A stretch of 64,000 nt of DNA from positions 1,612,001 through 1,676,000 of the forward strand of contig NZ_CP023507.1 in NCBI RefSeq assembly GCF_002386345.1, in the 5' to 3' direction. The DNA is from Streptococcus oralis. GTDB taxonomy: Bacteria; Bacillota; Bacilli; Lactobacillales; Streptococcaceae. Made by a program: the position numbers and the translations under genes. Of the stretch, positions 1 to 40,776 are shown one piece after another; position 1 is the stretch's first letter, and each line of letters opens with the position of its first letter. The notes under the pieces were generated by a model that was given only the letters and a program-made list of their open reading frames with translations, ran no database searches and was not told the DNA's origin.

Positions 1-637
1 CTACAAAGTCTTCAGAAGCACTGTATTCACCAGTAAGAGCTGAAAGGAATCCTTCGTAGATGAAGACCAAACCTTGACCACCTGAGTCTACCACACCAAC
101 TTCCTTAAGGACTGGAAGCATTTCTGGTGTCTTAGCCAAAGCTGCTTTTGCGCCTTCCAAGGCTGCACGCATGACCTCAACAGCATCATCTGTTTGCTCC
201 GCTTTTTTCTTGGCACCAATAGCCGCTCCACGAGAAACAGTCAAAATGGTCCCTTCAACTGGTTTCATAACCGCTTTATAAGCTACTTCGACACCGGATT
301 GGAAGGCAAGAGCCAAGTCTTGACCTGTTAATTCATCTTTTTCCTTGATAGCCTGAGAGAAGCCACGGAAGAGCTGAGAAGTGATAACCCCTGAGTTCCC
401 ACGCGCACCCATCAAGAGCCCTTTGGCAAGAATACTCGCTACTTCTCCAACTGTAGAAGCAGGCTTGTCTGCTACTTCTTTCGCACCATTTTCAATGGTC
501 ATTCCCATGTTTGTCCCAGTATCTCCATCTGGAACTGGAAAGACGTTCAATGAATTGACATATTCTGCTTGCTTATTCAAACGAGTTGATGCAGCTTGCA
601 CCATCTCTTGGAATAAACTGGTAGTAATTTTTGACAC
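1..637 (-). CDS. fakA: Fatty acid kinase subunit A (DAK/DhaL-type), 5' part only
   Basis: This is the N-terminal ~212 residues of a DegV-partner kinase; the rest lies beyond the left window edge. The start is GTG at 637, preceded by AGGAG at 6-8 nt. The segment VPDGDTGTNMG near residue 40 is the Mg-ADP binding motif of the DhaL fold, and MGARGNSGVI follows near residue 75. In Firmicutes FakA phosphorylates fatty acids held by FakB (DegV) proteins, feeding exogenous fatty acids into phospholipid. It starts 3 nt before the upstream Asp23/Gls24 gene ends, so the two are translationally coupled, as in most streptococci. Older annotations call it a dihydroxyacetone kinase-like protein; nothing here supports glycerone as substrate. 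Confidence 0.9.
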   Translation of the reverse strand, partial: MSKITTSLFQEMVQAASTRLNKQAEYVNSLNVFPVPDGDTGTNMGMTIENGAKEVADKPASTVGEVASILAKGLLMGARGNSGVITSQLFRGFSQAIKEKDELTGQDLALAFQSGVEVAYKAVMKPVEGTILTVSRGAAIGAKKKAEQTDDAVEVMRAALEGAKAALAKTPEMLPVLKEVGVVDSGGQGLVFIYEGFLSALTGEYSASEDFV

Positions 638-2248: not shown

Positions 2249-5200
2249 CTATTTTTTATGCTTACGAAAACCTGCAAGACCCAACAATCCCAAAATCATT
2301 CCCACAACTGGAAGCATGCTTGCTGCTGTTCCTGTATTTGGAAGTGATGGCTGCGGTTGTGGCTTGCCTGGTTCTTTAGGCTCTGGTTTTGGAGGTTCTG
2401 GCGTTGTTGTTGTCACTTTCGCTGTCATCTCTTGTAAATTGACTGTATTGATAAAGGTATTTTCAACCTTCCCAGCCGAGATACGTTCTACCTCGATGTA
2501 GAAGTCTGCATCAAAGGTTCCTTTAACGCCTAGAGAGTTTAGGAAGTCTTGATTGATAACATACGACCATTTGCCTGCTTTTTCGTCCCATTTGACGGCC
2601 ACAATCTTCTTGAGGAAGTCAGGATTTGTATCCTGGTTCACTTCAAATAAGAAGGCATAAGCTGTACCTTTGACAATCTTGTCACCAGCTTTGACTACTT
2701 TACCATCCTTCAGGATGACATCATAAGGCAAGATAAGGTCTTTCTCAGCTGTGTACTCTGTACCCTTGAAAATGCCTTGCCACTTACCTGTATATCGATC
2801 ATGAACCACATCTAACTGGTCACTACCGTCATATTGGAAGAGGCTATCATGTTTAGCTGGAACAGTTACGCCATCAAGTAGATAGCGGATGTATTGGCCA
2901 ATCTGTACCTCTTGACCGTCCAAGACTTTCTTATTATTCTTTTGATCCAGGGCATGTTTCTCTGGCTTCACATCAGGAACTGAGACAGTCACAAGGTTTG
3001 ATTGATAGCCATTCCCAAAGTCAATCTGTTTAAAGTCATTCTCGACTTTGTCCCCTGCTTTAACCAAGAGTTTGGCTGGAAGATCAACAGTAACATTCTT
3101 ATTTGGTTTCACGTAGTTCTGATAGAAACTCTTAGAATCCTTGGCTACCCAGAGATAGAACTCACCTTTAGGTTGCAAGTTCAATTCCTTCAAAATTTTA
3201 TTGATTGCATCAGTACGTCCTGCATCTGAAAGTACATGATACATGTCAAATAGGTTTTTCACGTCTTTACCAGCAGCAGTCATCTTGATCTTGCTGTGGT
3301 CAACTGTGAAGGCTTTGTCTTGAACATCATCTAAGATTGCAAACTCCTTACCAAGTGCGCTCGCTGAAGCAAGAGTTTTGGCATAAGAACTGTAGTCTGT
3401 CATCAAGCGGAAGGTCACGTTACGATCAAATGTTTTAGCACCATTGATATCCTTTCCAGAATGATCTAACACAGATTTGACTGGTTTTGGAGGTCTTGGA
3501 GTGTAGTTCGTAACAGTATTTGAGAAAACTTCATAGTTATTCACTAACACTTTATAAGTGTTGTCATAGAAGCCCTTGTCATAGATTGGTTTCCAGGTAA
3601 TCACAGGAGCTTCTAAGCGCTTCCCTTCGTAGGTTGCAGTAAAGGTATAAGTATTCTTTCCTGCATCATAGGCAACGCTCCATCCCGCTTTCTCTGCAGT
3701 TGCTTTCGTCACAGCTACATCAGGAACTGCTCCAGCTTCGAGTGGATCAATGATAGTAATCTTGTCACCTTTTTTAAGGTTCGCATAGATATTGTCATGA
3801 TTCAATGTGTAGAGCTGCGTATCGTTTTTAGCAACTGTTTGGCCATCTGTATTCGTTTTATCTGTGTCAGATACAGACTTGCGGACAGTAGGTTTATACT
3901 GCAATTTGTAACCGTGATAGCTTGCGGATAACTTCTGATTTTTAGTTTCAGATAGAGTTTTAAGCGCCAAGGTTGGTTTGGCTGGATTTTTCGCATTGAC
4001 CAATTCAGCTGATACAGGTTCAGTCTTAACTGGCTTCACGGTTGTTTTAGTAATGGTTGCAGTAGCTGGAACTCCAACAACCGGCGCTAAAGCCTTCGTA
4101 TTCAAAGCAAACCAGAAAGTTTGGCCACCTGAATTATCTGGTCCATCCCATTGGATAAATTCGGATGTGAAGGCTGTCCCTTCCTTAAAGACACCAAGTG
4201 CAGCTCCCTTGTATTGGTAAGGTGAGTCAGATTTATCCCAAAGATGCCCCACATCTTGTTGGTCGTTGTAGCCTTCAGCGCGAACATAACCATTATTCTT
4301 GTTATAGCTTACAGTTGAGCCGTTAATTTCAACATGAGTTCCGTTAATGGCTTTCGCACCTTCCCAACCAATACGATTGTGATTGAGTGAAGAATAGGTC
4401 AGGGTTGCAGGAGTCTTTTCACTTGCTTTGAAAGCTACTTCTTTCCCATCCACGTTGTAGTAGTAGGTATCCGTAACCAAGAAATTCATGTAGTCTGCTG
4501 GTACACCGGTTCCATCGTTACGAGCTACTACGAATCCTTCTGTTGGGTCATTCAAGACATAGACATCATTCAATCCTGTCTTCCCTTGATTAAGAATCTC
4601 GAATTTTCGATGGATACGAGAAATATCATGCTTTTTACCATCTGCAGTTGAAACAGTCAAACCTTTCAGATTAGTGTAGTCAACTTCTGTTTTCCATCCA
4701 GTGCCAACATCCTCGTATTTCAAGACTTTAGTCGAGTCAAGAATACGAGCATAGCCTGAGGTTCCTTTTGATGAGAGAATGTAACCTTTAGTAGTTACCT
4801 GCGCTCCTGGAGCAGAGGACTCCACTGTTGCTTCAGGATTTGCTGTCGCAACACTAATGGCTTGCAAGACTACTTCTTTTATGTAGCCTTCCGTGCTTGT
4901 CTTAGCTCGAAGCTCATCGTACTTCTTCTGCCATTCCGCTTGGGTCTGCTTAGCTTTGTCATAAGCTGCTTGGTTTTGTTCCCCAATTTGCTTCGCTTCA
5001 TCAGCTGAAGAAACTTCCTGTGTTTTAGAGGTTAAAAGTACACCAGAGTTTTTCAAATCTGTTGATTTACGATCAGCATCTTGATTAACTTGATCACTAG
5101 CATTCTTCTTCTCTGCATAGGCAGCCATGATGGCTTTGTTAAGCTCCACTTTGCTTTTTGCAGTTGCAATAGCTTTGTCATTTTGTTTCTTCAATTCTTC

Positions 5201-5950
5201 TACTTCTGCGATTGAAGAAACGGTACGTGTCACAACCTTAACCGTTACATCCTTTTTCTCCAAATCTATTGCAGCAGCTTCTACTGCTTGATTTAATTCA
5301 GTAGCTTGTTTGACAGTAGCTTCGTACTTCCCTTTTTCTTCCAGGTAGGTTGAGACAGCTTGCTGATTTCCTGCTAAGACTTTCTTAGCTGTTTGAGTAG
5401 CTTTGTTGTTTTGAGTCGCTGTCCCATCTGTGGCAGTCGAACCATCATTCGTCACTGTAACAGTTGTTGATTGTTCGTGCTTGCCTTTTTCAGTGGCCAC
5501 AAAGCTATTATTAGCTTGAATGGCTTCCTGCGCTTCCTTAAAGGCTTCATTGTTTTGAACTTGTTTTTCAGTCGTTTCTTCAAGTGCCTTTATTTGCTTA
5601 GTCTGGTCTTGTTTAATCTCAGCCTTAGACTGTTCAAGACTTGATGAGGTAGTATTTGTACCCTTATCAATGCTTGATGTCTCAGATACAACTACTCCAG
5701 CTTGTTTAGCCTTGTCAGCAGCCTTTGTGACTGCACTATTATCAATCGCTACGGACTGGCTTCCTGTTGTTTTACCAGCTTGTGTAGCGTACATGTTATT
5801 GTCGTTTTCAATTTCAGGCTGAACTGCTTCATCCGCCAATACAGAACCTGCAGAGAAGGCTACAATACCTGCAACTGCAATTCCTGATACCAGGCCTTTA
5901 GCCCATTTTTTCTTACGGAAATATCCGTGTCCTTGTGTTTTTTCTGCCAT
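2249..5950 (-). CDS. Antigen I/II (AspA/SspB-type) cell-wall adhesin
   Basis: The 1233-residue protein has the layout of the AgI/II family: a long signal peptide with a FRKKKWAKGLVSG variant of the YSIRK motif (cleavage probably after SVLA, about residue 39); an alanine-rich coiled-coil region, about 115-345; a GbpC/V-type domain (about 380-650, with the WDGPDNSGGQTFWFAL motif); C-terminal Cna-like domains (about 690-1190); a short proline-rich wall region; then LPNTG (about 1203), a hydrophobic helix and a FRKHKK tail. Family members bind salivary glycoproteins, collagen or other bacteria and are anchored by sortase A. It is shorter than classical SspA/SspB or PAc (about 1500 residues), mainly through fewer A and P repeats, closer to AspA-like forms. 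The start (ATG 5950) has AGGAGAG at good spacing. It lies inside the rpmB-bracketed island and has no obvious promoter of its own. Confidence 0.93.
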   Translation of the reverse strand: MAEKTQGHGYFRKKKWAKGLVSGIAVAGIVAFSAGSVLADEAVQPEIENDNNMYATQAGKTTGSQSVAIDNSAVTKAADKAKQAGVVVSETSSIDKGTNTTSSSLEQSKAEIKQDQTKQIKALEETTEKQVQNNEAFKEAQEAIQANNSFVATEKGKHEQSTTVTVTNDGSTATDGTATQNNKATQTAKKVLAGNQQAVSTYLEEKGKYEATVKQATELNQAVEAAAIDLEKKDVTVKVVTRTVSSIAEVEELKKQNDKAIATAKSKVELNKAIMAAYAEKKNASDQVNQDADRKSTDLKNSGVLLTSKTQEVSSADEAKQIGEQNQAAYDKAKQTQAEWQKKYDELRAKTSTEGYIKEVVLQAISVATANPEATVESSAPGAQVTTKGYILSSKGTSGYARILDSTKVLKYEDVGTGWKTEVDYTNLKGLTVSTADGKKHDISRIHRKFEILNQGKTGLNDVYVLNDPTEGFVVARNDGTGVPADYMNFLVTDTYYYNVDGKEVAFKASEKTPATLTYSSLNHNRIGWEGAKAINGTHVEINGSTVSYNKNNGYVRAEGYNDQQDVGHLWDKSDSPYQYKGAALGVFKEGTAFTSEFIQWDGPDNSGGQTFWFALNTKALAPVVGVPATATITKTTVKPVKTEPVSAELVNAKNPAKPTLALKTLSETKNQKLSASYHGYKLQYKPTVRKSVSDTDKTNTDGQTVAKNDTQLYTLNHDNIYANLKKGDKITIIDPLEAGAVPDVAVTKATAEKAGWSVAYDAGKNTYTFTATYEGKRLEAPVITWKPIYDKGFYDNTYKVLVNNYEVFSNTVTNYTPRPPKPVKSVLDHSGKDINGAKTFDRNVTFRLMTDYSSYAKTLASASALGKEFAILDDVQDKAFTVDHSKIKMTAAGKDVKNLFDMYHVLSDAGRTDAINKILKELNLQPKGEFYLWVAKDSKSFYQNYVKPNKNVTVDLPAKLLVKAGDKVENDFKQIDFGNGYQSNLVTVSVPDVKPEKHALDQKNNKKVLDGQEVQIGQYIRYLLDGVTVPAKHDSLFQYDGSDQLDVVHDRYTGKWQGIFKGTEYTAEKDLILPYDVILKDGKVVKAGDKIVKGTAYAFLFEVNQDTNPDFLKKIVAVKWDEKAGKWSYVINQDFLNSLGVKGTFDADFYIEVERISAGKVENTFINTVNLQEMTAKVTTTTPEPPKPEPKEPGKPQPQPSLPNTGTAASMLPVVGMILGLLGLAGFRKHKK

Positions 5951-5969
5951 ATATCTCTCCTTTTCTTAA

Positions 5970-6293
5970 TTAAAATAGTTTTTTCTTGTAAAAGTAACCT
6001 ACTGCTGTCAACAACATGCCACCAATTACAGCTGGGAAACTTTGTTCTGTTCCTGTGTTTGGCAAAGTTACCATTTTACCATCCGCAGTTGAAACACTGA
6101 TTATCTTGTCTTCATTTGTAACAGCTCCAAGTGCTTCAGGAGCAACTACAGAACCATCTGAAAGGATAAGATGCCCATTTTGAGTGCTAACAATAGAATC
6201 ACCTGTGCTAGTTTGAACAGGTGATTTCGTAATATCATGCACTGCCTGACCTATTGATGTAGATGCTGTTCCAATTTGTGACTTCCCTTTTTG
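5970..6293 (-). pseudogene. C-terminal remnant of an LPXTG surface protein
   Basis: The reading frame is open from the rpmB copy 2 stop codon to 5970 and encodes about 107 residues ending in TLPNTGTEQSFPAVIGGMLL, a hydrophobic helix and a YKKKLF tail: a complete sortase sorting signal with no signal peptide or adhesive domain in front. The only internal start candidate is GTG at 6242 without a convincing binding site. It therefore looks like the stump of an older surface protein whose 5' part was replaced when the second rpmB copy arrived. A leaderless sorting signal could not be exported, so it is very probably non-functional. Confidence 0.8.
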
Positions 6294-6482
6294 TTAAACG
6301 CGTTCAACTTTACCTGATTTCAAGGCACGAGCTGAAGCCCAAACTTTTTTAGGTTTTCCATCGATAAGAACAGTAACTTTTTGAAGGTTTGGTTTTACGG
6401 CACGTTTTGTTTGGTTCATCGCGTGTGAACGGTTGTTTCCTGATACAGTCTTACGACCTGTAAAGTAACATACTTTAGCCAT
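6294..6482 (-). CDS. rpmB: 50S ribosomal protein L28, copy 2
   Basis: Intact 62-residue L28, identical in protein sequence to the copy at 1158-1346. Start, ribosome binding site and about 100 bp of upstream DNA are also duplicated, so it probably has a working promoter. It differs from copy 1 in lacking the downstream terminator: the stop codon is followed directly by the surface-protein remnant and then the AgI/II gene. The silent differences between copies suggest either old duplication under purifying selection or import from a related strain. Confidence 0.95.
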
Positions 6483-34215: not shown

Positions 34216-34980
34216 TCAAATCATATATTCTACACTATAGGTGGCATCTGATAAGATACGAGCCAGGAACTGCTTGGTTCGTTCTTCTTGTGGACGACTA
34301 AAGAAATCGTGGGGATTGTTCTCCTCTACGATACGGCCTCCATCCATGAAAATAACGTGGTTTGCGACATCTCTAGCAAATCCCATCTCATGCGTGACGA
34401 CAACCATGGTCACACCTTCTCCCGCCAACTGTTTCAGAACATCCAAAACATCTCCAACCAACTCAGGGTCTAGTGCTGATGTTGGTTCATCTAGCAAAAT
34501 GACCTCGGGCTTGACGGCAATGGCACGCGCAATTCCTATTCGTTGTTGTTGTCCTCCAGATAGTTGTGAAGGGTAGTAGTCTTTATAGGCAAGTAAACCA
34601 ACTTTTTCCAAGGCAGATTCTGCACGTTTGAGCGCTTCTTCCTTGGGAACTTTACGAGCGACGATTAGGCCTTCTAGAATATTTTCCAGAGCAGTTTTAT
34701 TCGCAAAAAGATTGTAGTGCTGGAAAACAAAGGCTGTTTTTTGGCGAATTTCTAGAATGTCTTTCTTGCTCAATTTGGATAAGTCATAGGTTTTTCCTGC
34801 CAAGGTCAAACGGCCACTATCAGCTTTTTCTAAGTGGTTGAGACAACGGAGAAAGGTCGTTTTCCCCGAACCTGATGGCCCTAAGATAACGACGACATCC
34901 CCTTTGTTGACCTGGAGATTGACATCCTCCAGCACCTGCCTCTCACCAAATGTTTTTGCGATATGTTCTACTTGTAACAT
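34216..34980 (-). CDS. Polar amino-acid ABC transporter, ATP-binding protein
   Basis: 254 residues with Walker [10 protein letters not shown], signature LSGGQQQR, Walker [13 protein letters not shown] and switch VVVTHEM: the GlnQ/TcyC-type ATPase of polar amino-acid uptake systems. It is the last gene of a seven-gene operon (two URO-D-like proteins, small membrane peptide, binding protein, two permeases, ATPase). Cystine or other sulfur amino acids are a plausible substrate, from context only. Confidence 0.93.
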
Positions 34981-34989
34981 CCTGTCCTC

Positions 34990-35712
34990 CTATACAAAAC
35001 GCGCACTAGATGCTTTTGCACTTTTTTCTTTTTTCACATAGCCTTTTTCCAGTAGGGAGAAGCCCCACTGAATCAAACCACAGATCAAAATATACTGCAA
35101 AAAGATCACAAAATAAGACTCAAAATACTGGTAACCGTAGGACGCTTCTACACGAGCAATAGCGGTGATGTCCTTGATAGTCATAACAAAGACCAGGGAG
35201 GTCCCTTTGACGATATTGATTACCAGATTGGCCAAGTTAGGCAAGGCTGAGCGCAAGGCTTGAGGAAAAACAATCCTTAGATAGGCCTGGGTCGTAGTCA
35301 AGCCAATCGCATGCGCTGCCTCTAGTTGTCCCTTGTCCACCGTCAAGATAGCTGAACGCAAAATCTCCGACAAACTCCCGACTGTCATCAAACTATAAAT
35401 GATAAAAGCATAGTAGAGAGGATCAAGCTTGAAAATATCAAAGTCACTTCCTATGCTTTTGAGAAATTGATTCAGCAAACTTGGAAACAAACTATAAAAG
35501 AAGAGAATCAATAAAATCGGAGGAGTCGCTCGGATGAAGGCCAGATAGACCAGAGAAAAACTCCTCACACCTCGAACCTTGTAAATCTGCCCCAAGGCTA
35601 AAAATAGAGCCGGTAAAAAGCTTAAGACCATAGCCACAATCATGATAATCAAGGTGATTGGCACACCCTTCAAGGTCTCCAGAAAGGTCTTTACAATATA
35701 GTCTATATCCAT
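34990..35712 (-). CDS. Polar amino-acid ABC transporter permease 1
   Basis: 240 residues, about five membrane helices, with the inner-membrane EAA-type loop (QLEAAHAIGLTTTQAYLRIVFPQALRSALP, ~135-165) that contacts the ATPase. HisM/GlnP family. It is encoded 9 bp before the ATPase gene and 3 bp after the second permease, so one heteromeric channel is likely. Confidence 0.92.
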   Translation of the reverse strand: MDIDYIVKTFLETLKGVPITLIIMIVAMVLSFLPALFLALGQIYKVRGVRSFSLVYLAFIRATPPILLILFFYSLFPSLLNQFLKSIGSDFDIFKLDPLYYAFIIYSLMTVGSLSEILRSAILTVDKGQLEAAHAIGLTTTQAYLRIVFPQALRSALPNLANLVINIVKGTSLVFVMTIKDITAIARVEASYGYQYFESYFVIFLQYILICGLIQWGFSLLEKGYVKKEKSAKASSARFV

Positions 35713-35715
35713 TTC

Positions 35716-36408
35716 TTACCTCCCTTTTGTTTCCAAAGACTTCTCAAGCAAACGACTCAAGCTAGAAATAACCAAGGCAATCCCCCAGTAAAGAAGTGCA
35801 ACTGCCGTATAGGTTTCCAGAGAGTAGTTCCCTAAATTGCGACTAATCAAGAGATTGCCTGCCCCCATAACATCAACAAAACCAATCGTATAAGCCAAGG
35901 CAGCATCCCGCATGAGATTGAGAATAGCGGTCGTTATATTGGGAAGAGCAACTTGAAAAGCTTGGGGAAAAATGATTCTCCAAAAAGTCTGACTTGGAGT
36001 CAAACCAATACTAAGCCCGGCCTCTGTCTGCCCCTTTGGAATAGCTTGATAGCTCGCCTTGAAAACCTCGGCAACAATAGCCGCAAACAAGAGAATCATC
36101 GTCAGGAGAACAAAAATAGTTTTAGACCAGTTGTTGATATCCAAACCAAGCCACCATTTCAGAAATTCTGGCAAGCCATAAAAGACTAGAAAAAGCAAGA
36201 CAATCGGCGGTGTACAACGTAGGGTAAAGATATAGCCTTTGGAAATCGCTGCAAAACTCTTGTCTTCTCCTACTTGCGCCCAGGCCAAGAGACCTCCAAA
36301 AAGGGAACCAAGAAGAGTGGTAAAAAAGAGAATGGACAAGGTCATAGGAAGTGCCTGCCATAAGGTCGGTAAAAACTGAAAGACCTTGGAAAAATCATAA
36401 GAAACCAT
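35716..36408 (-). CDS. Polar amino-acid ABC transporter permease 2
   Basis: 230 residues with the same architecture and an EAA loop (QTEAGLSIGLTPSQTFWRIIFPQAFQVALP). Two different permeases and one separate binding protein are typical for cystine and arginine/histidine systems. The start at 36408 follows the binding-protein gene by 32 bp. Confidence 0.92.
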   Translation of the reverse strand: MVSYDFSKVFQFLPTLWQALPMTLSILFFTTLLGSLFGGLLAWAQVGEDKSFAAISKGYIFTLRCTPPIVLLFLVFYGLPEFLKWWLGLDINNWSKTIFVLLTMILLFAAIVAEVFKASYQAIPKGQTEAGLSIGLTPSQTFWRIIFPQAFQVALPNITTAILNLMRDAALAYTIGFVDVMGAGNLLISRNLGNYSLETYTAVALLYWGIALVISSLSRLLEKSLETKGR

Positions 36409-36440
36409 GCAAAACCCTTTCTAGTCTTGGAATTTTTGGT

Positions 36441-37319
36441 CTAGTCTTTGTCTACGTAACTAAAGACATCTTCTTTAAAGTATTGCTGAGATAGCTTAGC
36501 AAGCGTACCATCTTCTTTCAACTCTTTGATTGCTTTTTCGTATTCCTTAGCGAATTGCTCACCCTTTTCATCACGGTGAATCAAGGGATAAGTTGGAATA
36601 CCCTTGTATGGGAACCAGCTGAGTTTATCCGCATATTGGTGGTAAGGGCCATCTTCTGCGGTAACTGCTTTTTCAAAGGACAGTTTGATATCAAAGAAGG
36701 CGTCATAACGTCCTTCCAAGACCCAGGCATAGGCATCTGCCACTTTAAAAGATTCAGCTGCTGTTAGCTCAATCGGTGCATCCTGATGTTTTTCATTGTA
36801 GCTGGTGATAACATTCCATTGAGCATTCTGTGGAGAGATAGGAACCAATTTCCCTTTATTCTTAGCAAAGTCATCAATGGTTTTGTATTTCTGTTCATCT
36901 TCTTTTCTGACAGTAAATCCGATGATGCTCGCTCCGACTGGTTCAGATGGAATGACAAACTTTTTAGCTCGTTCATCTGTGTACCAAGCTCCCTTGGTTC
37001 CGATGTCATACTTGCCTGATTCCAGACCAATCAAGAGGTCGTCATCACTGGTGCCCGTATATTCAAATTGATAGTTTGCCAACTTCTCATCAACAGCCTT
37101 CAAAACAGCTACTTCATAACCATCTGATTCCCCTTTTTCATTGACAAAGTCATAAGGCACATAGTTTTGTGTATGGGCAACCTTCAAGGTTATGACTTCA
37201 GCAGACGAAGCTGTTTCTCCCTCCTTGGCTGGAGCGCCAGCTAAACTTCTCCCGATAATCGTCGCCCCAATTACTGCAACAACTGCTACACCACCGATAA
37301 TCCATGCTTTTTTACTCAT
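36441..37319 (-). CDS. Amino-acid-binding protein of the ABC transporter, membrane-tethered
   Basis: 292 residues. An N-terminal hydrophobic segment (AWIIGGVAVVAVIGATIIG) is followed by SLAGAPAKEG with no lipobox cysteine, so the protein seems to be held by an uncleaved or signal-anchor helix instead of a lipid. The remainder is a solute-binding protein family 3 domain (VPYDFVNEKGESDGYEVAVLKAV; DDLLIGLESGKYDIG; an acidic-rich closing lobe). The binding residues do not reveal the ligand to me. Located between the first URO-D-like gene and the permeases. Confidence 0.88.
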   Translation of the reverse strand: MSKKAWIIGGVAVVAVIGATIIGRSLAGAPAKEGETASSAEVITLKVAHTQNYVPYDFVNEKGESDGYEVAVLKAVDEKLANYQFEYTGTSDDDLLIGLESGKYDIGTKGAWYTDERAKKFVIPSEPVGASIIGFTVRKEDEQKYKTIDDFAKNKGKLVPISPQNAQWNVITSYNEKHQDAPIELTAAESFKVADAYAWVLEGRYDAFFDIKLSFEKAVTAEDGPYHQYADKLSWFPYKGIPTYPLIHRDEKGEQFAKEYEKAIKELKEDGTLAKLSQQYFKEDVFSYVDKD

Positions 37320-37330
37320 CTTTTTCTCCT

Positions 37331-38329
37331 TTAGTTTTCAAGCGCTTCTCTCACCCACTGGATACGTTCAACTGCGATATCACTTGGAATGGTACAATCT
37401 GCCCCAAGTACCAAGCCCTGTTCCCCAGCTTCTGCAACTAGTTTCTTTGCCTCAGCCTGAATGGCATCCTTGCTACCAGTATACAGCAAGCCTGTCTTAC
37501 CATTTTCGAATCCTCCAAGAACCGTACGTCCCTTGAAAATCTCACGACCTTCCTTGAGAGTGATTCCCTCTGGTCCTACAGCCCAGTTAAAGACTTGGGC
37601 TGGGTAGTCTGCAAAAAGATGAATATCATTTCGCGCTCCCTCGTAGCCACAGATATGAAGAACAGTGACGCCACCAACAGCACTAGCTGCTTCCAGAACC
37701 GTTATCTCGCTAGGGGCAATGACGGCTTGATAATCTGCTGCCGACACTCGTTGATCTTGGATACTCTGCACGCTGAGATAGATTCCATCAGCACCAGCCT
37801 CTTCGATGACAGCTCGACTGAGACTCGCAATATCTTCTGCAATCACATCCAACACCTTTTTAAGGGCTTCAGGATCTTCCACCAGAAAGTCTGCAATAAG
37901 GTCATCGCCACCAGACACTTCCCCAAGCAGCCACTTGAGATAGGTCACAGGAGCAAAAATATTGTAAATCGCAACAATATCTTCTGTAAATTCTTGCTTG
38001 ATTTTCTTAACCAAGTCCACCTGCTCTTTTATCCAAGCATGATCTGGTCCGAGTGGTTGAATGGTTGCCAATTCTTGAAGTGATTTGCCTTTGGCAATCG
38101 CTGGATTTGGATAAGCAAAGTAGCCATCACTCATGAGTTTGATAAAGTCTGGCTGAACTTCTCGGATAAAGCGCTTATGGCCCTCAATATTCTTCTCGAT
38201 AATGGCTGGATTTGAGAAACCGTGTAGCCATTCGTCTTCTGATGTGAAATGATGCCAAAAACCAACTGGCACACGATCAACCTTTTCACCTCTAAATGCT
38301 TTTAAAACCCATTCTTTTTTTTCTGACAT
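37331..38329 (-). CDS. MtaA/URO-D-family protein, paralogue 1 (possible thiol methyltransferase)
   Basis: 332 residues of the uroporphyrinogen decarboxylase superfamily (EWVLKAFRGEKVDRVPVGFWHHF start; barrel with DGIYLSVQSIQDQR). The sequence VLHICGYEG (~225) and later VLGADCTIP (~315) give His-x-Cys...Cys, the zinc-thiolate site of MtaA/CmuA-type methyltransferases. True decarboxylases have a different active-site set, and streptococci do not make haem. So a thiol methyl-transfer role, for example onto or from a sulfur compound, is more likely than porphyrin chemistry. No corrinoid protein is encoded nearby. Operon with a second paralogue and an amino-acid importer. Confidence 0.75.
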   Translation of the reverse strand: MSEKKEWVLKAFRGEKVDRVPVGFWHHFTSEDEWLHGFSNPAIIEKNIEGHKRFIREVQPDFIKLMSDGYFAYPNPAIAKGKSLQELATIQPLGPDHAWIKEQVDLVKKIKQEFTEDIVAIYNIFAPVTYLKWLLGEVSGGDDLIADFLVEDPEALKKVLDVIAEDIASLSRAVIEEAGADGIYLSVQSIQDQRVSAADYQAVIAPSEITVLEAASAVGGVTVLHICGYEGARNDIHLFADYPAQVFNWAVGPEGITLKEGREIFKGRTVLGGFENGKTGLLYTGSKDAIQAEAKKLVAEAGEQGLVLGADCTIPSDIAVERIQWVREALEN

Positions 38330-38331
38330 TC

Positions 38332-38535
38332 TTATTCTCCATTTCTTACTTTTTCAACTAATAAACTGCTTGCGATATCATTCGAGCGTAGAAAGGGGAG
38401 ACTGGACTTGGAAAAATCCTGAACTCCATGACATCTCTCTCCATTTTTGCAGTGCTGATTTTTTACGACGCTTATGGCAACCAAGGCCAGCAAACCGACA
38501 ACTGCAATGAAGATGCCCCATCTTTTACTTTTCAT
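38332..38535 (-). CDS. 67-residue membrane peptide, unknown function
   Basis: A single N-terminal membrane helix (WGIFIAVVGLLALVAISVV) follows MKSKR, then an extracytoplasmic tail with two cysteines (KNQHCKNGERCHG) and a serine-rich end. AGGAG lies before the ATG at 38535. It is sandwiched between the two URO-D-like genes with 2-11 bp gaps, so it is clearly part of the operon. I do not recognise the family. The tethering helix resembles that of the neighbouring binding protein, which may mean a membrane anchor or redox-sensing partner, but that is speculation. Confidence 0.65.
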   Translation of the reverse strand: MKSKRWGIFIAVVGLLALVAISVVKNQHCKNGERCHGVQDFSKSSLPFLRSNDIASSLLVEKVRNGE

Positions 38536-38546
38536 AGCTCCTCCTT

Positions 38547-39551
38547 TTAGAGAACAGCTGCCTGCCGAATCCAGTCCAACCTCTCTAAGTCAAAGTCATC
38601 TGGAACAGTACAGTCAGCTCCCAGAAGAACGCCTTTACTACCAGCTTCAGCCAGCAACCGTCTTGTTTCATCTTGCAATTCCGCCTTGGAACCTTGATAA
38701 AGCAAGCTTTTCTTGCCGTTTTCAAATCCACCTAAAACGGCCTTGCCTGGAAACAACTCCTGCCCCTGTGTCAAACTAACATCCTCATGGTGGGTCGCCC
38801 AGTTGACCACTTGAGCTGGATAGTCCTTAAAAATCGTCACATCATTGCTCGCACCTTCAAAACCACAGATATGGAGGATATTGGTCCCACCCACCTGATT
38901 AGCTGCCTCCAAAATCGCTATATTGCTCGGTTCGATATAGGTTTGGTAGAGTGCTGGTGTGATGCGCTCATCTTGAATTTCCTGGGTACTGAGGTAAATC
39001 CCGTCAACACCGCCTTGCTGGATGATTTTCTGAGTTAGGATAGCAATATCTCCTGCAATCACGTCTAGAATAGCTCTAAATTGCTCAGGATTTTCAAGCA
39101 ATAGATCAGCCACTTCCCTATCTCCTCGAGAAGTTTCTGTGCGGAACCAGCGCTTGAGGTAGGAGATTGGTGAAAAGATATTGTAGAAAGAAGCAATCTC
39201 TTCGGTAAAGGTCTCTCGAATCGCTTGTACCACTTCCACCTGTTGCTGAATCCATGGGTGTTCCTCACCAATCGACTCAATAGAAGTCAGCTCCCGAATG
39301 CTTGCAATCTTAGGATTATAGACATTACTTGGATAAAGGAAAAAACCATCGCTCATAATTTTGACAAAATCAGGGCGAATCCTTTCCACATAGCTGCGAT
39401 GCCCATCAACACTTTTTTGAAAGATACGTGGATTATTTAATCCCTGCCCCTTTTCTTCGAGTGTTACAAAATGAAACCAAAATCCGACAGGAACTCTTTC
39501 CACTTCATCGCCTCGAATCGCTCTAAAGACTAAATCTCTTTTGCTTGCCAT
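38547..39551 (-). CDS. MtaA/URO-D-family protein, paralogue 2 (possible thiol methyltransferase)
   Basis: 334 residues from ATG 39551 (GGAGAAAGGT just before; the frame is open to 39590 but has no better site). It is a clear paralogue of the protein at 37331-38329: RDLVFRAIRGDEVERVPVGFWFHF, DGIYLSTQEIQDER, and the zinc motif ILHICGFEG with LLGADCTVP. It leads the operon. Two paralogues in one operon may form a heteromer or act on successive methyl transfers. A 57-bp piece of this gene recurs at 40935-40991. Confidence 0.75.
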   Translation of the reverse strand: MASKRDLVFRAIRGDEVERVPVGFWFHFVTLEEKGQGLNNPRIFQKSVDGHRSYVERIRPDFVKIMSDGFFLYPSNVYNPKIASIRELTSIESIGEEHPWIQQQVEVVQAIRETFTEEIASFYNIFSPISYLKRWFRTETSRGDREVADLLLENPEQFRAILDVIAGDIAILTQKIIQQGGVDGIYLSTQEIQDERITPALYQTYIEPSNIAILEAANQVGGTNILHICGFEGASNDVTIFKDYPAQVVNWATHHEDVSLTQGQELFPGKAVLGGFENGKKSLLYQGSKAELQDETRRLLAEAGSKGVLLGADCTVPDDFDLERLDWIRQAAVL

Positions 39552-39580
39552 ACCTTTCTCCTTCCATTTGGATTGAAACC

Positions 39581-39656
39581 ATCTTACCACTCCTTTTCCC
39601 CTTTTCCCAATATATATTGACTATCAACTCGATTGGAAATTTTTATATCTATAAAG
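39581..39656 (-). promoter_or_regulatory. Activator-dependent-type promoter of the URO-D/ABC operon with operator-like repeat A
   Basis: Minus strand TTGGGA (39605-39610), 18-nt spacer, TAAGAT (39581-39586); the -35 is poor, as in activator-dependent promoters. Immediately upstream is repeat A (39621-39656): CTATCAACTCGATTGGA, AT-rich stretch, TATATCTAT. It is nearly repeated at 39748-39780. Confidence 0.55.
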
Positions 39657-39734
39657 AAAAAAATCCCTGAAAAGCTTGATGTTACTAGCCTTTCAAAGAT
39701 TCACTTTATTTTCATCTATTTTTCAAAAAGGAGC

Positions 39735-39780
39735 TGATATAGATTTTCTATCAAGTCGATTGGATTTTTTTATATCCATC
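39735..39780. promoter_or_regulatory. CmbR/CysR-type LysR box plus operator-like repeat B
   Basis: TGATA (39735-39739), nine bases, TATCA (39749-39753) matches the TGATA-N9-TATCA box of the LysR-type sulfur regulators CmbR/CysR of lactococci and streptococci. It merges into repeat B (39748-39780: CTATCAAGTCGATTGGA, T tract, TATATCCATC), a near copy of repeat A ~127 bp away. The third half-site expected after 2-4 nt is only weakly present. Confidence 0.6.
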
Positions 39781-39918: not shown

Positions 39919-40776
39919 ATGAAAATATCCAAAGTTACCATTACAATTGCTTCTACACTTGCTTCCGTCATTTTACTGACTGGCTGTGGCACAAATTCGG
40001 CAAATTCACAGACAACACAAAGTAGTACATCTGATAATCAGGTTACAATGACCTATGATCAGTTGCGTTCAAGAGAGAACACTATGTCAACTCTTTGGTA
40101 TCAAAAAGCAGCTGAGACCAAGGCACTCTATCTACAAGGTTACAATGTCGCTACTGATCGTTTAAAAGAACTACTAAAAACACAGACAGATAAACCCTAC
40201 TCTATCGTTTTGGACTTAGACGAAACCGTATTAGACAACAGTCCTTATCAAGCTCAAAATGTCAAAGACGGAACAGCATTTACCCCAGAAAACTGGGATG
40301 TCTGGGTAAAAAAAGCCGCAGCCAAGGCTGTACCAGGTGCTAAAGACTTCCTCCAATTTGCAGACAAAAACGGTGTCCAAATTTACTATGTATCTGACCG
40401 CACGATAGATCAGGTAGATGATACGATCAAAAACCTAGAAAATGAAGGAATTCCTGTACAAAGCCGCGATCATCTCATGTTCTTAGAAAAAGGCGTCAAA
40501 TCTAAAGAAGGTCGTAGACAAGCAGTCCAAGAAAAAACCAACTTAGTCATGCTACTAGGAGACAATCTTGTGGACTTTGCAGAGTTTTCAAAGACCTCTG
40601 AAACTGAGCGCGACCAAAAATTAGAGGAATTACAAAAAGAGTTTGGTGAGAAATTCATCATTTTCCCTAACCCAATGTACGGATCATGGGAAAGCACTGT
40701 TTACAATGGTAATAAATTGGATGCCAAGGGTCAAACTGAAGAGCGCCAAAAAAACTTACAAGGTTTTGATAAATAA
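39919..40776 (+). CDS. Surface lipoprotein acid phosphatase (HAD class C/e(P4) type)
   Basis: 285 residues. Signal peptide with lipobox LTGC (cysteine at ~23), then a Ser/Thr/Gln-rich linker and the HAD domain: motif I VLDLDETVLDN (~95), YYVSDRT (motif II), K in FLEKGVKSKEGRR (motif III) and LLGDNLVDF (motif IV). This is the 5'-nucleotidase, lipoprotein e(P4)/LppC/SapS group: Mg-dependent acid phosphatases releasing nucleosides or phosphate outside the cell. It is monocistronic, with its own promoter and terminator. Phosphate or NMN scavenging is the likely role. Confidence 0.93.
   Translation: MKISKVTITIASTLASVILLTGCGTNSANSQTTQSSTSDNQVTMTYDQLRSRENTMSTLWYQKAAETKALYLQGYNVATDRLKELLKTQTDKPYSIVLDLDETVLDNSPYQAQNVKDGTAFTPENWDVWVKKAAAKAVPGAKDFLQFADKNGVQIYYVSDRTIDQVDDTIKNLENEGIPVQSRDHLMFLEKGVKSKEGRRQAVQEKTNLVMLLGDNLVDFAEFSKTSETERDQKLEELQKEFGEKFIIFPNPMYGSWESTVYNGNKLDAKGQTEERQKNLQGFDK

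Follow-up and report, generated by a model that had tools for sequence, protein, structure and literature searches.

An operon of Streptococcus oralis that joins two proteins of the uroporphyrinogen decarboxylase (URO-D) superfamily to an amino-acid importer very probably serves in the supply of sulfur-containing amino acids. It lies on the minus strand, at 34216–39590, of the window analysed here, a stretch of 64,000 nucleotides (nt) covering positions 1,612,001–1,676,000 of contig NZ_CP023507.1, and encodes two URO-D paralogues (UROD1, 38547–39551; UROD2, 37331–38329; 50% identical), a small membrane protein, a family 3 solute-binding protein (SBP; 36441–37319), two permeases and an ATPase. 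The operon itself is known, its orthologous single-copy form in Streptococcus mutans being tcyDEFGH; the enzyme family that it encodes is unrecognised. An earlier note, made from the letters of the window alone, had proposed a candidate new system, a description that does not stand because the S. mutans orthologue already bears this name. What is new is the co-occurrence of the URO-D and SBP genes, the separate clade that these URO-Ds form, the finding of no B12-binding domain over the cut-off in the genus and the methionine (Met) and cysteine (Cys) T-boxes of relatives. We give roughly even chances to a TcyDEFGH-type supply module, in which the importer and a zinc-binding URO-D protein would make methionine or cysteine available by corrinoid-free alkyl transfer. 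Loci are denoted by L numbers and genomes by G numbers, and papers are cited by accession.

Methionine and cysteine T-boxes in relatives

URO-D/importer operons have a T-box leader ahead of their first gene in 10 of the 28 non-streptococcal loci scanned with Rfam, a set that comprises all 33 such loci except L115, L132, L135, L136 and L138. The leaders reach or exceed the gathering score in L101, L104, L105, L108 (two operons), L118, L128 and L129, and fall below it in L106, L107 and L116 (74 to 81 bits against 93); matches under the gathering score were inspected for L106, L107, L116 and L131 only. Read at the T-box model positions uuc, the specifier codon is AUG (Met) in nine leaders (L101, L104, L105, L106, L107, both of L108, L116 and L118) and UGC (Cys) in two (L128 and L129). 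As a control, we read six of the ten T-boxes in the window's genome, whose genes were recognised from sequence, leaving unused the other four, one of which (L171) reads UGG; all six gave the correct codon, namely AUC for ileS, ACU for an operon with thrS as its second gene, UUC for pheS, UCU for serS and UGG for both trpB and trpE. The acceptor-end bulge of a T-box pairs with the discriminator base of the tRNA, which is A73 in tRNA-Met. A UGGU bulge agrees with Met in L101, L104, L105, L108 and L116, and UGGA agrees with Cys in L128 and L129.

These codons therefore indicate that the operon most likely supplies methionine or cysteine. In S. mutans, tcyDEFGH is activated by HomR (PMC5131005), and this regulation, together with the Met or Cys T-boxes that occur among relatives of two groups, indicates a sulfur amino acid as the output of the module; the sulfur link that the earlier note had drawn is thus supported. 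The best sequence matches of the window's SBP in the PDB are, in rank order, 4eq9, 4c0r, 9d5w, 2yln, 4gvo and 2o1m; we take the ligands of 4eq9, 4c0r and 2yln to be glutathione or cystine, and the lower ranks to be general amino-acid binders. L131 has, divergent to the operon, genes for a PF01053 enzyme and a MalY-like protein of the aminotransferase fold.

Other regulatory elements were seen in the same loci. A further T-box of the Met type (GAA-G-AUG-A, 51 bits) in L116, at 1–207 (+), precedes an M20-type amidohydrolase-like gene followed by binding-protein, permease and ATPase genes. S-adenosylmethionine riboswitches lie at L128:14468–14570 and L129:14775–14874 (+), about 6 kb from the Cys T-box and URO-D operon, the one in L128 preceding a gene for a methionine-binding-lipoprotein-like product.

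Correspondence to TcyDEFGH of S. mutans

The S. mutans-type locus L036 encodes a URO-D protein ending in IAWVKEAVTL, an SBP piece with GEDVFNYVTK and, nearby, a 116-aa protein with AALLYLF. The C-terminal peptides of SMU.932, SMU.933 and SMU.929 (PMC10782952) are present in this locus, and UROD2 is therefore the orthologue of SMU.932. By gene order and by orthology to SMU.932–936, the operon is of the TcyDEFGH kind; the mapping of the names tcyDEFGH onto the tags SMU.932–936 is one that we assume. Both operons have the order URO-D, SBP, permease, permease, ATPase, whereas that of the window has two URO-Ds, includes a gene for a 67-aa membrane protein and lacks an adjoining LysR gene, a neighbour found in L036, L049, L100 and L113. 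The SBP gene of L036 (6028–6881, −) is broken into two open reading frames (ORFs).

SMU.932–936 are described as an amino-acid transporter set whose members change together (PMC10900908, PMC11921374, PMC12815764), and tcyDEFGH is named a cysteine/cystine transporter (PMC5131005). TcyD goes under 'hypothetical protein' in an S. mutans study (PMC10782952) and under 'uroporphyrinogen decarboxylase' in databases. Our literature searches, which took in few subscription journals, found no paper in which TcyD figures as a zinc enzyme or a URO-D enzyme. Both current labels mask the fixed place of TcyD beside a sulfur-amino-acid importer that is under Met/Cys control in relatives.

Linkage of URO-D and importer genes

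A match to UROD2 (E 1e-3) was found in 113 of 284 Streptococcus genomes. Two or more URO-D matches are present in 70 of the 113, a count that includes partial matches and ones of another subtype; because the remaining 43 carry a single match, the pair is neither universal nor essential, a point on which the earlier note is corrected. The linkage with the transporter is supported. With at most eight candidates scored per genome, an SBP orthologue (E at most 1e-60) was detected in 109 genomes, every one of them URO-D-positive, and in none of the 171 others, and the four URO-D-positive genomes without it (G210, G218, G245 and G248) show weak URO-D matches only. In 67 loci (34 streptococcal, 20 from other Lactobacillales and 13 more distant), all 53 TcyD-type URO-Ds are accompanied by homologues, fragments included, of the SBP, at least two permeases and the ATPase. 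These lie no more than 5 kb away on the strand of the URO-D, and the order of the genes varies. L066 carries tandem binding-protein genes (4547–6336, −) whose products are 92% and 69% identical to the window SBP. Beyond the genus, 57 of 395 genomes and 19 of 80 genera in a sample of the order match at 1e-3, some with distant URO-Ds, and eight genera, Streptococcus included, match below 1e-60. A sample of the phylum gave matches at 1e-10 in 14 of 398 genomes, two of them streptococci.

A separate URO-D clade

Eight residues (W25, H27, K64, G182, H225, W249, G273 and C312) are invariant in 80 of 80 homologues, and D61 and N248 are conserved in 79. These homologues were gathered by similarity to UROD2, so a control set of other URO-Ds was required. 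It consisted of 28 ORFs (25 distinct genes, with some loci overlapping, nine of them HemE) drawn from the 30 top-ranking loci when 40 genomes were searched, and W25, H27, K64 and W249 occur together in none of them. In a FastTree phylogeny of 105 sequences, the 80 homologues form one clade (support 0.907). All 55 sequences of the TcyD type (HxCG...GADC or GANC) fall into one clade within it (0.898); the 21 of subtype b (HxHG...C) do not form a clade, the three of subtype c (HxCK...GADC) do (1.0), and one homologue fits none of the three.

Of the 21 subtype-b sequences, 11 are accompanied by an importer like that of the TcyD type, and those of L134 and L137 by branched-chain-type ATP-binding cassette (ABC) genes. 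Subtype c occurs with genes for a mannose-type phosphotransferase system (PTS) and for a peptidase of the M20 type, both assigned by Pfam in L109 and L111 and by likeness in L110; the URO-D gene of L109 adjoins one for a Cys/Met pyridoxal-phosphate enzyme, and these three operons perhaps deal with a PTS-imported sulfur compound. These associations bear on the idea that the operon is a plain cystine/cysteine importer and TcyD an accessory zinc protein (a sensor, store or stabiliser) with no catalysis on the cargo. S. mutans tcyDEFGH is indeed described as serving cysteine transport, the SMU.932 protein decreases together with SMU.933, 935 and 936 (PMC12815764), and zinc stress raises tcyEFGH transcripts (PMC9387928). 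Against this stand the eight positions invariant across members from more than one class and the unrelated importers beside clade members (L134 and L137; L109–L111), which fit an enzyme acting on the cargo better than an importer subunit. We consider a merely accessory TcyD improbable.

Paired URO-Ds arose at least twice: UROD1 of four streptococci forms one clade (1.0), the pairs of L104 and L105 lie within a seven-member clade without streptococci (0.961), and streptococcal TcyDs overall form a weak clade (0.385). Other gene associations of the clade include a Gfo/Idh/MocA oxidoreductase gene between subtype-a and subtype-b URO-Ds in the Met T-box operons of L101 (7137–8195, −; by Pfam) and L118 (7298–8410, −; by likeness). 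In L139 (536–3723), a subtype-b URO-D gene stands between genes of the octopine-dehydrogenase and acyl-CoA:6-APA acyltransferase families.

A putative zinc site and its possible chemistry

UROD2 carries the motif HIC at residues 225–227 and GADC with Cys 312, and UROD1 likewise has HIC...GADC. In a HMMER alignment, the HIC and C of UROD2 line up with those of Methanosarcina mazei MtaA (4ay7), confirming the MtaA-type zinc-ligand pattern proposed in the earlier note, and of 40 streptococcal URO-Ds examined, 39 retain His-x-Cys...Cys, the exception (L043) being of another subtype. At the level of sequence, the window URO-Ds thus have the zinc-ligand pattern of MtaA/CmuA, and they are predicted zinc proteins with His225, Cys227 and Cys312 as putative ligands. 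Such a His-Cys-Cys set has been argued to mark sulfur or selenium substrates (PMC10418091).

The two proteins score 37.7 and 32.6 bits with the MtaA/CmuA model TIGR01463, below its curated cut-off of 235.4. By definition, an Mlp protein shares over 25% identity with a characterised SCMT (PMC10418091); identity to M. mazei MtaA, the sole SCMT compared, is 21% over 302 residues of a structure alignment. A PDB sequence search with UROD1 gave no match at 1e-3. URO-D is the only Pfam family found on the two proteins at 1e-3, with no match to Meth_synt_2 (PF01717) or PF02574. Features shared with MtaA/CmuA and the type 1 mlp clusters (PMC10418091) are the URO-D fold, the His-Cys-Cys pattern, several adjacent URO-Ds and sulfur-metabolism neighbours. 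In contrast to these, no corrinoid protein or activase was found here and the conserved residues differ; they occur in strict anaerobes, whereas TcyD occurs in lactic acid bacteria and always has an importer in its operon. The main text of that paper contains neither 'Streptococc' nor 'ABC transporter'.

The cobalamin-independent methionine synthase MetE, whose barrel is related, carries out thiol alkylation without B12 (PMC539065); TcyD differs from it in being a single barrel of another sequence family. The MtaA-like fold and ligand set, with MetE as precedent, suggest that a thiol would be held on zinc and alkylated. We propose that the importer, of the PAAT family, takes up a sulfur-containing amino acid or small derivative and that cytosolic URO-D-fold TcyD proteins bind zinc through His225, Cys227 and Cys312, the two window paralogues perhaps pairing as a heterodimer in the manner of the UROD homodimer. 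The sulfur, either that of the cargo or that of an acceptor thiol (homocysteine, for example), would be bound by zinc as a thiolate, and transfer of an alkyl group, most likely methyl, without a corrinoid would then make methionine and/or cysteine available; both would be served if a methyl group moved from an S-alkyl cargo to homocysteine. That TcyD turns the cargo into methionine or cysteine, or uses it to make one of them, would be the simplest joint reading of these data.

For corrinoid-free methyl or alkyl transfer on a zinc thiolate by TcyD, we put the likelihood somewhat under one half. The more specific proposal, that the clade consists of importer-coupled, corrinoid-independent zinc S-methyl (alkyl) transferases turning S-alkylated amino acids into methionine and cysteine, is tentative, with the chances clearly against it. 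If it were true, the substrates would be sulfonium or even thioether compounds, many streptococci and lactic acid bacteria would carry such transferases, and these would form a third solution beside MetE/MmuM and the B12 systems. B12-free alkyl transfer would be a new mode for a fold tied to methyl-folate (MetE), corrinoid (MtaA) and epoxides, and the picture of how streptococci and lactobacilli obtain their sulfur would have to be redrawn. The T-box codons make the question accessible at the bench.

Several observations tell against this chemistry or the regulatory evidence behind it. The T-box bulge mismatches A73 of tRNA-Met in L106 and L107 (UGGC) and in L118 (UGGA), and no T-box at the gathering score was found in 10 streptococcal loci. 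Subtype b, with His for the first Cys, stands behind Met T-boxes in L116 and behind the first leader of L108, so Cys227 is not required for the sulfur link. We know of no precedent for thioether demethylation without Co(I). The importer alone would account for the regulation, and the naming of the S. mutans operon as a cysteine/cystine transporter requires no methyl chemistry. A B12-binding domain (PF02310) is present in 5 of 18 non-streptococcal carriers, and near the subtype-c gene of L111 (12536–15965) there are an adenosylcobalamin riboswitch and cobalamin-synthesis-like genes.

A zinc-thiolate enzyme of another kind, in which a bound thiol, be it cysteine, homocysteine or a cargo resembling glutathione, attacks a non-methyl electrophile or takes part in disulfide reduction or transfer, would draw on the same fold and ligand set. 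Epoxyalkane:coenzyme M transferase is such a B12-free enzyme and adds a thiol onto epoxides. The superfamily as listed in PMC10418091 includes an epoxide coenzyme M transferase, work on S. mutans puts forward cysteine/cystine as cargo (PMC5131005), and the invariant W25, H27, K64 and W249, absent as a set from the control ORFs, suggest a substrate of the clade's own. Among enzymes that combine this motif and fold, the best known are nevertheless methyl transferases, and Met T-boxes suit a methionine-forming reaction better than cystine reduction; we regard such other chemistry as rather unlikely.

Corrinoid and haem enzymes

Could TcyD instead be a classical methyl transferase whose corrinoid protein is encoded elsewhere? 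The MtaA-like fold and motif, together with the PF02310-positive carriers and the cobalamin genes of L111, speak for this. On the other side, PF02310 is over its cut-off in none of the 284 Streptococcus genomes, the window's included (five have matches below it), and is absent from 13 of the 18 non-streptococcal carriers and from 6 of 10 TcyD-type carriers, a sample that excludes the genomes of L128–L131. The L111 genome itself has no PF02310 match. No ORF in the 99 fetched loci (32 of only about 4 kb, three from the window's own genome) contains the corrinoid sequence pattern, which does fire beside other URO-Ds (L153, L154/L164, L156, L161 and L165). Given also the low MtaA/CmuA scores and the separation of the clade from other URO-Ds, a corrinoid-dependent TcyD is highly improbable. 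The earlier note's view that no corrinoid partner is visible is supported for the genus, and the B12 system in the genome that would have counted against that note did not emerge from the PF02310 search.

Still less credence, close to none, attaches to uroporphyrinogen decarboxylase or another haem-pathway activity, for which the Pfam family, the best fold match and the database labels would speak. TcyD lacks the RQAGR stretch of HemE sequences and has the zinc-ligand motif, whereas HemE shows the reverse, and the nine HemE sequences branch apart. The genome, a single 2.05-Mb contig, has two PF01208 matches, both within this operon, and no further gene of that family.

The window's genome encodes MetE and has no PF02574 match. 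TcyD as a replacement for MmuM was considered and rejected: PF02574 occurs in 55 of the 113 URO-D genomes and in 44 of the 171 others, a co-occurrence above expectation, kinship ignored.

Leader region of the operon

Neither a T-box nor a riboswitch was found in the window or, at the gathering score, in 10 streptococcal loci. Upstream of the operon lies the 'sulfur box' of the earlier note, a palindrome, TGATA-N9-TATCA (39735–39753), a possible operator of the CmbR/HomR type, for which the consensus GYGATAAAAAWWAYTTATMAC is printed in PMC5131005. The pattern YGATA-N9-TATMA, the published CmbR consensus shortened after the site was seen, has three matches in the window, two of them the two strands of this same site, where 0.37 would be expected; three were reached in 2 of 100 shuffles. 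The palindrome is present upstream in 28 of 30 close loci (L003–L032; in the other two a single URO-D was recognised, so a different place was inspected, and the L032 row of the promoter alignment begins inside the gene). In 34 more distant streptococcal loci, it appears in only two (0.42 expected), and we rejected the box as a genus-wide feature.

The leader also contains a 43-nt direct repeat, with a proximal copy at 39610–39652 and a second, 84% identical, at 39737–39779. A hairpin with a T run behind it is visible by eye at 39662–39701, in the interval that separates the palindrome from UROD1, perhaps the terminator of the upstream gene; L022 and L066 have different sequences that form a similar hairpin at the equivalent place. 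A terminator scan of the leader found none, the loop of the visible hairpin being too long for the scan.

Genes of the operon

All seven tightly spaced ORFs are present, separated from UROD1 to the ATPase by 11, 2, 11, 32, 3 and 9 nt. Pfam assigns PF01208 twice, SBP_bac_3, BPD_transp_1 twice and ABC_tran, the composition of a PAAT ABC importer beside the two URO-Ds (81.3 bits, and 62.3 bits for UROD1; cut-off 23.9), in agreement with the gene content given by the earlier note. That note had started the first gene at GTG 39590, which would give 347 aa; ATG 39551 (334 aa) is probably the start, because it has a good Shine-Dalgarno sequence and homologues begin at that Met.

The 67-aa protein (38332–38535, −) has a single predicted membrane span, with a hydropathy peak of 2.7 from residue 6, and no Pfam or NCBIfam match at 1e-3. 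Small ORFs that resemble it by eye occur at the same place or just upstream in other streptococci, and lack its two Cys residues. The SBP (PF00497, 80.2 bits) has an N-terminal hydrophobic membrane anchor in which no lipobox was found, and the streptococcal orthologues compared likewise have such a stretch without a lipobox; the lipobox pattern is present in the SBPs of L101, L108, L118 and L128–L131. Permease A (35716–36408, −; PF00528, 73.2 bits) has the cystine permease PRK15100 as its best NCBIfam model, at a score under the cut-off. Permease B (34990–35712, −; PF00528, 60.6 bits) is followed by the ATPase (34216–34980, −; PF00005), whose best NCBIfam model is TcyN (314.6 bits against 406 required). 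Between the operon and a luciferase-like gene, the window carries a gene for a lipoprotein e(P4)-family 5'-nucleotidase (39919–40776, +), which L066 lacks at that place.

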